Shown: in pieces, positions 43,665 to 46,818 of the stretch | Layout of the letters: each line of letters starts with the position of its first letter | Numbering within the stretch: the first letter of the stretch is position 1 | DNA from: Bryobacterales bacterium | Lineage (GTDB): Bacteria; Acidobacteriota; Terriglobia; Bryobacterales; Bryobacteraceae | Direction: 5' to 3' | DNA: 64,000 nt | Assembly: GCA_020854055.1 (NCBI GenBank) | Contig: JADZGD010000102.1 | Location: 1-64,000 of the forward strand | Notes under the pieces: model-generated | The model's input: the letters and a program-made list of their open reading frames with translations, nothing else | The model's database searches: none | Told to the model about the DNA's origin: nothing | Program-made: the position numbers and the translations under genes

Positions 43665-44603
43665 TTAGGGAATTGCGCCGGTGAAGATCTTCAACTGTTC
43701 ATAGAGTTGGAGAACGGCCGGTCCCAACGTTACCAGCAGCACGGCCGGAAAGATCAGGAAAAAGACCGGGAAGATCAGCTTCACGCCGACCTTACGGGCC
43801 GACTCTTGAGCGGCGTACTTGAAACGAGTGCGCAGAAACCGGGCGTGCGTGCGCAGCGCCGGCCCGAGGCTGGTGCCGAAGCGATCGGCATCAATCAACA
43901 GCTTGGAAACCTTGGTCAACTCCGGCTCGTTGTTGCGTTCAGCCAGATGCCGCAGCGCCTCCAGGCGGGACTTGCCCGCTCGTAGCTCCATCTGAACCAG
44001 CCCCAGTTCGGCCGAGAGGTCGCCGTAGGTGGTTCGAATTCCAGCCGCCGCGGCGCCCAGCGCCTGATCGAACGGCTGGCCTGCTTCAAGTGCCAGGATC
44101 ATTAGATCCAACGCCGCAGGCAGACCGGCGCGCAGGCGGCGGCGGCGGAAGCGGATCCGGCTAACCAGTAATCTTTCCGGCAGCATGAAGCCGAAGGCGC
44201 CGCCGCACAGGCCTCGAAGCAGCATGTCGCCCAGGCTGGAGGATGTATTGGTTGCCACCACCGCCACGATGCAGCCGAAAATCACGGCGCTGGCTGTGTT
44301 CAAGCCAATGAATGCCGTATGCGCCGCGGGCCACCGGTAGCCGGCTTCGGCCAGCCGCTTACGCATGGCTCCGGTTCGATTTTGCCGCGCCGGCACCGCC
44401 TTGCCCACCATTTGCAACGTATCTACCAGCAGCGCGCGCGCGCCCTGCCCGCCGCGGGTGTCGCCGATCAGCGGTGATGCGCCATCCGCGCCGGCGCCGG
44501 AAGATCCGGCCGATGGTCTGAGGATAAGCGCGTAGCCGGCGGCCACCACGGACACAAGCACGAAGAGGAAAAGCCCCCCAAGAAGGACAATGGAAGCGCT
44601 CAT
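43665..44603 (-). CDS. tadC: TadC-like pilus/type II secretion platform protein
   Basis: The 312-residue inner-membrane protein has a GspF/TadC layout: membrane helices at the N-terminus (IVLLGGLFLFVLVSVVAAGYAL) and in the middle, then a cytoplasmic T2SSF domain with LPAALDLMILALEAGQPFDQAL and ELGLVQMELRAGKSRLEALRHLA. The C-terminus has KLIFPVFFLIFPAVLLVTLGPA. It is the second platform subunit of Tad (Flp) pili. Its start overlaps the tadB stop by 4 bp. Confidence 0.9.
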   Translation of the reverse strand: MSASIVLLGGLFLFVLVSVVAAGYALILRPSAGSSGAGADGASPLIGDTRGGQGARALLVDTLQMVGKAVPARQNRTGAMRKRLAEAGYRWPAAHTAFIGLNTASAVIFGCIVAVVATNTSSSLGDMLLRGLCGGAFGFMLPERLLVSRIRFRRRRLRAGLPAALDLMILALEAGQPFDQALGAAAAGIRTTYGDLSAELGLVQMELRAGKSRLEALRHLAERNNEPELTKVSKLLIDADRFGTSLGPALRTHARFLRTRFKYAAQESARKVGVKLIFPVFFLIFPAVLLVTLGPAVLQLYEQLKIFTGAIP

Positions 44604-45541
44604 AATCGAATGTCCACGATGCGCCGGATGATGAAGTGGGCCAGAATCAGGCAGCCGATCGCGGCGGCAATCAGGTCGCGGCCGTACTTGAAGACGAACA
44701 GGCTTTTCAGGTAATCCGGATTCACCGTGGCCATGATTGCGGCGATGAAAATGGGCAGGATGGTGAGGATGATCCCCGTCATGCGGCCGTGCGCCGCAAT
44801 GGCCCGAACTTCCGAGCGTAGCGCTTCGGCTTCCCTCATGCTCTCTGCCAGGCGCTCGATAACCTCGCTCAGCTTGCCTCCAGTGCGGACTTGAAGCCGG
44901 AGGGCGCTGGAAAAAATACCTACCTCGAGCAAGGGTACCCGGACGGCCAGATTGTTCATCGCCTGCTCGACCGGAAGTCCAAGCTGGACTTCGGCAACCG
45001 TACGGCGAAGTTCGCCGGATAGCGGCATCGTACTTTCTTCCCCAACCAAATCAAGCGCCGCGGCTACCGGATGGCCGGCGCGCATGGCCCGCGCAAGTGA
45101 ATCGAGAGCCTCCGGAAATTGCTGGGAGAGCTTGTTAAAGCGTCTGCGGCGGCGCCGGTTGACGTAGAAATAGGGCGCCAGAATGCCCGTAGCGCCTCCG
45201 GCAACCGCTGCCCATCCGGGGATCCAACTCCAGTTCAGAAGAACAGTGAAGCACACAGCACCGGACAAAAGCATCAGCAGGGTAATGCGTCCTACGCTCC
45301 AGCCAAGGTCAGCTTGTGCCAGCAGGGTCTTCAACCGATGGACGAAATCGAACCGGGCCAGCAGGCTGGACCATACGCCGATGCTGCTCAACTCTTCGCT
45401 GCGAATCAGCAGTGGGTTCTCGTCTGCCGCTGTCACGTCGCCGGGGGAAAGTCTCCCCATTGCCGCCGAACCGGCCGCAACCGCAATCACCGCGGCGGCA
45501 AAAACGATCGCGAAAAAGAACAGCACGATCGCCAGCATCAT
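44600..45541 (-). CDS. tadB: TadB-like pilus/type II secretion platform protein
   Basis: The 313-residue protein has N-terminal membrane segments and the T2SSF domain QQFPEALDSLARAMRAGHPVAAALDLV, with VEQAMNNLAVRVPLLEVGIFSSALRLQVRTGGKL split as RVPLLEVGIFSSAL and RTGGKLSEVIERLA. It is the partner platform subunit for the TadC-like protein. The start overlaps the upstream cpaB-like stop by 4 bp (45538-45541). The three-gene set looks like one transcript. The pilus ATPase (CpaF/TadA) and the pilin are not in the window. Confidence 0.92.
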   Translation of the reverse strand: MMLAIVLFFFAIVFAAAVIAVAAGSAAMGRLSPGDVTAADENPLLIRSEELSSIGVWSSLLARFDFVHRLKTLLAQADLGWSVGRITLLMLLSGAVCFTVLLNWSWIPGWAAVAGGATGILAPYFYVNRRRRRRFNKLSQQFPEALDSLARAMRAGHPVAAALDLVGEESTMPLSGELRRTVAEVQLGLPVEQAMNNLAVRVPLLEVGIFSSALRLQVRTGGKLSEVIERLAESMREAEALRSEVRAIAAHGRMTGIILTILPIFIAAIMATVNPDYLKSLFVFKYGRDLIAAAIGCLILAHFIIRRIVDIRL

Positions 45542-46818
45542 GGCTTAGCGTCCGGAATGAGCCGGTGTTCCGGCTTCAAAGCTGCGGTGTTGACCGGTTT
45601 TTCCAACCGGGGCGTCACCAGCGCCAACAGCGCGCCCATGCCGCTCCCGCCGGGTGACAGGCCCGTGACCACGAAACTCTGACCGTCGGCGAGTTCGACA
45701 TCCGTCTCGATTTTTTGCGACCACCCGCTGGAGATGACCTCCGGCTGGACCCGCAGGCGGACCCGGTTGGCGCTGACAATCGCCGGGACGAAACGAAGCC
45801 GGACGGCAGTGGACCGATCGGACGCCTGTACGCTGACCTCGCGGTTATCGGCGGCCGAAACGGTCGAGGCGGAGACAATCGAGAGACCGCTGTTTTCGCC
45901 CAATCCTCGCAGTTCGGTCTCGGCGTCAAAGCCGGGCCCGAGTGGGGCGACTCGCAGGACATTGGTGGAGTACGGAGCGCCGAGCCAGGCGGCTAGTCCG
46001 CCGGACGCCGGCCGCCCGCACTCGATGATGCGGACCTGGAACTCAACCCGCCGCGAGACCAGCCGCGACTTCTGCTGAATTTGCGCTACTGGCCGTGGTC
46101 CGGAGGCTGCCGCGCGCAGAACCGGCCCTCTCGTTACTTCAGGACGCAACAGCGAAGCGAGCGTCAGCGATTCCGCCGGATTCCGCTGTTTATCGAGCGG
46201 GTTGCGCAGTGTGAGCCGCAGGCGCGCCGAGGCATCGGCGAAAGCGACGAGGTCGGCCTGTTTCGGCGTCACCAGCAGGGTGACCACCGCCGGCTTGCCG
46301 GCGCCCTCTCCCGGTCCTTTGCCGAACACGGCTACGTCCTGCAGTAGAGTCCGTAACTGGCTCCCTCCATCGGAGCGAGCCACAAACACCTGTAGATCCA
46401 CTTTCTGCCCGGCGTCCACCAGTTCCATTACGCCGGAAGACTCCGACACGCGAACCGAAACGGCGCGCATTCCCGCGGGCACGCCCAATCCGCCCCCCGA
46501 ACCTTGCGCCGTGGCTACCCGGCTGGCCGTAAGCGGTTCGTTCTCCGCCACCGGCAGAATAACGGTGGATCCTACCGCCTCGGTAACCGTGCCGAAGGCG
46601 CCTTTGGGTGTGCTGCCGTTCCACCGGGTGACCCGCAGATCGTCCTGCCGGATGACCGCCCCCGGCTCCAGGTTGCGTGACGCCAGCACCACCGGCGTCC
46701 CGGACTTCGATTCAGCGATCGCTCGCAACTTCCCGGCGAATAGACCATAGAAAACGCCGGTACAGATAATCGCGACCACGAATGCGATTGCCAGCAGTGG
46801 AATTAATTTCCTGTTCAT
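45538..46818 (-). CDS. cpaB: CpaB-like protein fused to a secretin-like C-terminal domain
   Basis: The 426-residue product has an N-terminal membrane helix (LIPLLAIAFVVAIICTGVFYG) and an SAF/CpaB region at residues about 42-110 (VVLASRNLEPGAVIRQDDLRVTRW). The CpaB periplasmic part follows to about 235. Residues about 255-415 resemble the C-terminal beta-domain of secretins: EFQVRIIECGR, then SIVSASTVSAADNREVSVQ, VRLRFVPAIVSANRVRLRVQPEVIS split here as RLRFVPAIVS and RLRVQPEVIS, DGQSFVVTGLSPGG and ALVTPRLEKP. CpaC normally carries that domain as a separate protein. Both halves appear intact. It is the first gene of the tad set. Confidence 0.82.
   Translation of the reverse strand: MNRKLIPLLAIAFVVAIICTGVFYGLFAGKLRAIAESKSGTPVVLASRNLEPGAVIRQDDLRVTRWNGSTPKGAFGTVTEAVGSTVILPVAENEPLTASRVATAQGSGGGLGVPAGMRAVSVRVSESSGVMELVDAGQKVDLQVFVARSDGGSQLRTLLQDVAVFGKGPGEGAGKPAVVTLLVTPKQADLVAFADASARLRLTLRNPLDKQRNPAESLTLASLLRPEVTRGPVLRAAASGPRPVAQIQQKSRLVSRRVEFQVRIIECGRPASGGLAAWLGAPYSTNVLRVAPLGPGFDAETELRGLGENSGLSIVSASTVSAADNREVSVQASDRSTAVRLRFVPAIVSANRVRLRVQPEVISSGWSQKIETDVELADGQSFVVTGLSPGGSGMGALLALVTPRLEKPVNTAALKPEHRLIPDAKP

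Follow-up and report, generated by a model that had tools for sequence, protein, structure and literature searches.

Introduction

In Tad pili, the alignment of the engine in the inner membrane with the pore in the outer membrane is an open question, to which the first structural answers were reported in 2025-2026 (PMC12307814, PMC13170226). In Pseudomonas aeruginosa the CpaB protein RcpC is described as a dodecamer, and its C-terminal hairpin, which is required for Tad function, docks in a model onto the N-domain of the secretin RcpA, completing the sheet of that domain (PMC12307814). In Caulobacter a bridge protein, CpaI, is reported to be positioned between the CpaB and CpaC partners (PMC13170226). 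Here we describe a gene, cpaB', in which a CpaB protein and a secretin-derived domain form one polypeptide of 426 amino acids (aa). It occupies positions 45538..46818 (minus strand) of a stretch of 64,000 nucleotides, hereafter the window, which comprises positions 1 to 64,000 of contig JADZGD010000102.1 (assembly GCA_020854055.1) from a bacterium of the family Bryobacteraceae, order Bryobacterales, phylum Acidobacteriota. The window genome measures 4.96 Mb in 159 contigs and is 98.4% complete.

With P. aeruginosa RcpC (9gzr; PMC12307814) the product of cpaB' shares the N-terminal helix, the SAF domain (D1) and RcpC domain (D2), and membership in TIGR03177. It differs in lacking the C-terminal docking tail, in whose place stands a secretin-derived domain of about 155 residues (the mini-secretin domain), and in being encoded with tadB and tadC only. 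The closest PDB sequence relative of this domain is the CpaC protein RcpA (8odn; PMC10499894), and the two have a fold in common; unlike RcpA, the domain has no secretin N-domain, is joined to an inner-membrane protein and scores under the Pfam Secretin cut-off. The nearest precedent for a cluster that groups CpaB with the two platform proteins is Kil, a split Tad-like system of Myxococcus xanthus, where this cluster is likewise separated from the secretin and ATPase genes; the Kil cluster, in contrast, holds pilins, and the available text of that report mentions no CpaB-secretin fusion (PMC8460266). A further comparison is offered by the canonical Tad locus that the window genome also carries, in which homologous CpaB, TadB and TadC are encoded and CpaB and CpaC are separate proteins.

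Identity of the two halves

The cpaB' open reading frame runs from ATG to TGA. A preliminary description of the window, made from the sequence alone, had given its coordinates and quoted four motifs, and these proved correct: in the product EFQVRIIECGR lies at residues 259-269, RLRVQPEVIS at 354-363, DGQSFVVTGLSPGG at 378-391 and LVTPRLEKP at 400-408. All features of the gene given below are on the minus strand. TIGR03177 matches residues 8-236 (E=1.9e-36, 125.6 bits, cut-off 71). The Pfam profiles SAF (39.1 bits, cut-off 21, E=1.1e-9) and RcpC (51.8 bits, cut-off 28.8, E=9.1e-14) also match above their cut-offs, the former over residues 42-101 (46516..46695; D1 of RcpC) and the latter over residues 113-205 (46204..46482; D2). 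Residues 5-36 (46711..46806) form a helix in the AlphaFold2 model, and its presumed location in the membrane follows from RcpC. The model of the whole protein has a predicted local distance difference test score (pLDDT) of 81.2, and its first Foldseek match is RcpC (9gzr_A, E=1.5e-9), in agreement with the D1-D2 fold. By VIA the same structure gives Z 10.7, with a root-mean-square deviation (rmsd) of 13.5 over 159 residues; this high value is probably due to a differing orientation of the two domains in the model. SAF-domain matches occupied the VIA list of the whole model, so the C-terminal domain was folded separately.

The mini-secretin domain covers residues 256-408 (45595..46053). Pfam Secretin (PF00263) matches the whole protein with E=2.3e-4 (21.2 bits) and residues 255-426 alone with E=3.6e-5 (23.8 bits), covering positions 38-122 of the 169 in the profile. 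The Secretin score on which the preliminary description had made its proposal depend is thus significant, though under the curated cut-off of 27.5. A PDB search with the single protein placed RcpA best over the C-terminal part (E=0.0086). On the single sequence alone, the case for a secretin would be marginal.

Relatives carry the case further. When named contigs of bacteria and archaea were scanned with an alignment, 49 loci were returned, all Acidobacteriota by title and two of them cut by contig ends; a scan of the same contig set with the single protein returned no match. Some of the 49 loci are near-copies of each other, and several are on the same contigs as loci of the genomes surveyed below. 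The fusion, which the preliminary description had proposed to look for in close relatives, is present in 33 of the 47 full-length loci (395-495 aa), and the remaining 14 encode proteins without the extension (233-255 aa). Counting the window protein, all 34 fusion proteins match RcpC and all 34 match SAF; 25 match Secretin at E<=0.01 (best 8.9e-9) and nine miss this threshold.

A profile of 33 C-domains, from which the near-copy L080 was excluded, retrieves the Tad secretin RcpA first among all PDB sequences (3.4e-13), and all 16 of its matches at E<=0.01 are secretins. Compared with a profile of nine canonical CpaC proteins of the family, it gives a probability of 99.4 (E 3.9e-21). Folded alone, the C-domain reaches a pLDDT of 88.7 and a predicted template modelling score (pTM) of 0.81, and the top 28 PDB entries for this model by VIA are all secretins (Z 6.6-9.4; next entry Z 5.7). 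RcpA (8odn) aligns with Z 8.4 and rmsd 4.0 over 104 residues at 31% identity, between residues 6-157 of the C-domain model and 131-370 of RcpA, with the secretin wall strands kept throughout. Z values of 8-9 are middling for VIA, and the weight rests on the uniformity of the list together with the sequence profile. The monomer model also bears a weak likeness to small closed barrels (Ail, Z 5.3; OmpA, 4.8), and a designed barrel comes first by Foldseek. A chance resemblance to secretins was considered and rejected, the single-protein matches in Pfam and PDB being marginal and the family profile decisive. The C-domain descends from CpaC, the secretin of Tad systems, and the CpaB-secretin fusion put forward in the preliminary description is real, by TIGR03177 for CpaB and by family profile, profile-profile comparison and structure for the C-domain.

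That a frameshift or misassembly had fused two genes, an artefact for which the preliminary description had allowed, is refuted. The same one-frame architecture is found in 33 further named loci, from many separate projects by title, and codon usage is even across the joint, with GC content at third codon positions (GC3) of 0.72 / 0.65 / 0.78. We regard the chance of such an artefact as negligible.

Absence of the docking pieces and shortening of gates and lip

At their C-termini the canonical CpaB proteins of the family share a conserved tail with the pattern V-x-V-I-x-G; in one comparison this tail aligned, weakly (E=0.0016 for the whole), with the corresponding region close to the C-terminus of P. 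aeruginosa RcpC. A docking-tail profile was built from 16 canonical CpaB tails; canonical L042, which was excluded from it, scored 2e-4, and none of 48 triad proteins matched at E<0.01 (best 0.024). Where the tail would be, cpaB' encodes a linker of low confidence (residues 227-252, 46063..46140, pLDDT<50). The secretin N-domain is absent as well, its place being occupied by CpaB. Judged from the sequences, the fusion eliminates both sides of the P. aeruginosa-type docking joint, the CpaB tail and the CpaC N-domain.

Within the mini-secretin domain the barrel-wall strands are kept, and the stretches that correspond to Gate 1, Gate 2 and the lip are truncated, in keeping with the shortened secretin beta-domain of the preliminary description. 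The intervals between successive anchors measure 19, 6, 4 and 8 residues in the window protein, against medians of 48, 26 (26-27), 19 and 35 in nine canonical CpaC; the medians over the 33 C-domains are 19, 13, 8 and 24. The second interval corresponds to Gate 1 by the RcpA alignment and the published gate numbering, which sets the tip of RcpA Gate 1 at 242-255; the lip segment of RcpA is reported to extend into the membrane (PMC10499894). From anchor spacing relative to CpaC, the sites of the missing segments are placed at residues 333-337 (45808..45822) for Gate 1, 363-367 (45718..45732) for Gate 2 and 388-396 (45631..45657) for the lip. In most relatives the lip segment is shortened, not absent.

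Selection on the two halves was estimated from substitution counts in 28 close pairs. The ratio of non-synonymous to synonymous substitution rates (dN/dS) is 0.03-0.19 for the C-domain (27 of 28 pairs, one undefined) and 0.03-0.31 for the CpaB half, which shows purifying selection as strong on the one as on the other; where it is present, the domain is maintained by selection. These values bear on the idea that the C-domain is a role-less leftover of the fusion event, now decaying. Such decay would fit the loss or shortening of gates, lip and N-domain and the absence of the domain from 14 of 47 named triads. The substitution pattern largely refutes it, the fold is predicted with confidence and the domain is found in at least 13 genera; we judge decay highly improbable. 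The preliminary description had also suggested a non-pore remnant used for docking. This reading comes closer to the evidence, but 'remnant' undersells a domain under purifying selection.

Distribution and origin of the fusion

An order-wide survey of 257 genomes found at least 47 with a fusion-type match, in at least 13 genera. In a survey of the phylum (347 genomes, E<=1e-45) no match outside the family goes past profile position 317 of 444. In a survey of the class (399 genomes), among the matches listed, those starting at domain position 2-3 belong to the window's family and to one genome of another family of the same order (G044 in our numbering), the remaining rows being CpaC-like. A separate CpaC (E<=1e-60) was found in 45 of 47 fusion genomes, including all 33 that are well assembled and all 13 genera. 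These 47 genomes were hand-picked from the fusion-type rows and include three partial matches; a few of the 45 CpaC matches are fragmentary (e.g. G134, G119), and the two genomes without a match are 62% and 58% complete. In the window genome, where the preliminary description had proposed to look for a separate secretin gene, a canonical CpaC is encoded on contig C85. In canonical loci cpaC follows immediately downstream of cpaB, so that a single in-frame deletion would yield the observed fusion.

In G044 the fusion protein (491 residues) is encoded in the order fusion-CpaF-TadB-TadC, the genes adjacent within one base (L171:9733-14396). With 18, 19 and 25 residues, its segments for gate 1, gate 2 and the lip are longer than those of the window protein and place it closer to CpaC. 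The window triad looks like a reduced version of this fuller, four-gene operon. Apart from the fusion locus on C3, contigs C1, C7 and C10 of this genome carry several T2SSE matches that fall within the alignment range of CpaF, which suggests that it has more than one Tad-like system.

In another explanation the fused domains would form an ungated outer-membrane barrel, ring and pore being one protein and CpaC being bypassed. In its favour, the predicted domain keeps the wall strands across the whole secretin domain, and the G044 locus has its own CpaF, no adjoining cpaC and longer gate and lip segments. It has to contend with a lip of 8 residues in the window protein where CpaC has 35, and with the separate CpaC of 45 of the 47 fusion genomes, G044 included. 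A pore and its partner built from one polypeptide, as the preliminary description had envisaged, are therefore disfavoured, and we consider this quite unlikely; for G044 the pore reading is harder to dismiss. Stated for the whole order, the second minimal Tad-type engine of Bryobacterales would be an ungated one-piece trans-periplasmic conduit that makes the docking step unnecessary, near-complete in G044 and more reduced in Bryobacteraceae; this too we think unlikely.

In a tree of TadB plus TadC (61 rows, quick method) all 52 triads group together (support 99), and G044 joins them, as against eight canonical loci, with support of 96. In the C-domain tree all C-domains fall on one side of a branch, with support of 99/100 without G044 and 92 with it. 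A single origin of the fusion is favoured, short of proof, by the TadB/TadC tree (96) and the domain tree (92). Short CpaB' proteins, with neither docking tail nor mini-secretin domain, are encoded at L100, L101, L102, L104-L107, L109-L111, L116, L118, L120 and L121, and a short triad-like protein is also found at L025; on the trees the extended and short forms swap at least three times. The simplest story would be one fusion, loss of cpaF in Bryobacteraceae, erosion of the gates and later losses of the domain.

The triad and the canonical Tad genes

The cpaB' gene comes first in a conserved operon that stands apart from the canonical Tad locus. Downstream of it lie the genes of two platform proteins of the T2SSF family, tadB' (44600..45541) and tadC' (43665..44603), all three on the minus strand and joined by successive ATGA overlaps. 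Compared with their canonical counterparts elsewhere in the window genome, the TadB' and TadC' proteins show 42% and 34% identity, respectively. In every one of the 47 full-length named loci cpaB' is followed by TadB, and in 46 of them also by TadC, the remaining contig ending first; in the loci examined the triad does not adjoin canonical Tad genes. Apart from cpaB', tadB' and tadC', no gene for an ATPase, secretin, pilin or prepilin peptidase was found in the triad locus of the window. A hidden partner gene was sought in 48 neighbourhoods around triads and none was found; recurring neighbours occur in subsets only (16 of 48 at most).

The canonical locus of the window genome (L028, on C85) has the order prepilin-peptidase-like gene, CpaB, CpaC, CpaE, CpaF, TadB and TadC, where the names of CpaE and the peptidase come from a reading of the sequences, not from a family search. 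Three T2SSE matches exceed the cut-off in this genome, and by place and alignment range the CpaF type is found only on C85; the class of the other two is our own reading. Flp-pilin-like genes on C149 and C143 remain under their cut-off (27.2 and 23.4 vs 32.2). Just after the canonical tadC, at least six genomes encode a protein of about 1000 residues (L028:14989-18060, L039:2-3118, L040:16908-19901, L041:2-2368, L043:16484-19570 and L046:11095-13998), which may be a pilus partner that is secreted or exposed on the surface.

This set of genes has a bearing on two further explanations. CpaB' with TadB' and TadC' might act as a regulator or competitor, assembling into mixed or non-productive platforms and so adjusting the canonical Tad pilus, with the C-domain as a plug or decoy for CpaC. 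Such a role would suit a triad locus without ATPase, pilin, secretin or prepilin peptidase genes, a genome with a single CpaF-type ATPase available to share, and a C-domain that is missing in some lineages. A matched set of CpaB', TadB' and TadC' is, however, retained in every lineage seen, more as in a working platform than a decoy, and we find this role rather unlikely. The triad might also serve another process, such as secretion or surface sensing, with unrelated partners encoded elsewhere, in line with its position apart from the canonical Tad genes. Its proteins are still typical of the Tad family and nothing links them to another system, which leaves this option very unlikely.

The triad of the window is flanked by genes for succinate dehydrogenase-like subunits and a Mrp/NUBPL-type ATPase. 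The succinate dehydrogenase-like genes upstream (window:47071-50459) are also found near the triad in L095, L096 and L115, and their recurrence indicates that part of the family has had this gene neighbourhood for a long time. At window:42371-42760 a protein of 129 residues of the HTH_25 family (RodZ-type) is encoded, seemingly only the cytoplasmic helix-turn-helix part.

A model for the fused protein

The explanation that we favour, with a probability of about one half, is that the product of cpaB' serves as alignment-ring protein in a second and much reduced Tad engine of the inner membrane. A Tad operon of the order cpaB-cpaC-cpaE-cpaF-tadB-tadC would have been duplicated, and an in-frame deletion would then have fused the 5' part of cpaB with the 3' part of cpaC, with loss of both docking pieces and a covalent linker in their stead. 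The CpaB' part would form a periplasmic ring on the TadB'/TadC' platform, and the mini-secretin domains would line up atop this ring as an ungated periplasmic beta-collar. Such a collar would lengthen the ring toward the outer membrane, where it might touch or slot under the ordinary CpaC pore, and the triad would be powered by a shared CpaF. We take the mini-secretin domain for a probable collar or adapter in the periplasm rather than an outer-membrane pore: the separate CpaC found in 45 of the 47 genomes with the fusion, together with the reduced gates and lip, makes the former likelier.

Several points weigh against this explanation. The architecture of the fusion is established; ring formation, the collar, the contact with CpaC and the sharing of CpaF are all steps that we infer, and the production of a pilus by the triad is putative. 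The Gate and lip labels rest on the alignment with RcpA and CpaC, and the third and fourth intervals, which we take to be Gate 2 and the lip, were assigned partly from general secretin anatomy. In the 14 of 47 triads that have neither tail nor mini-secretin, the domain must be dispensable for the role of the triad. In the CpaB tree G044 is unplaced (support 0). Finally, the RcpC hairpin alone is reported to be dispensable for co-purification with RcpA in P. aeruginosa (PMC12307814), so that loss of the tail is no proof of lost docking.

Significance

A literature search found no paper describing a CpaB-secretin fusion in its title or abstract, which is no proof of absence. By the same search, Tad systems have hardly been studied in the group of soil bacteria in which this conserved partial locus is found. 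The fusion may belong to an additional pilus engine that serves as a spare. By tying both partners together and dropping both docking surfaces, it provides a natural test of whether docking does more than align the two, for example in the opening of the gate, and it likewise tests how little of a secretin still does something useful.

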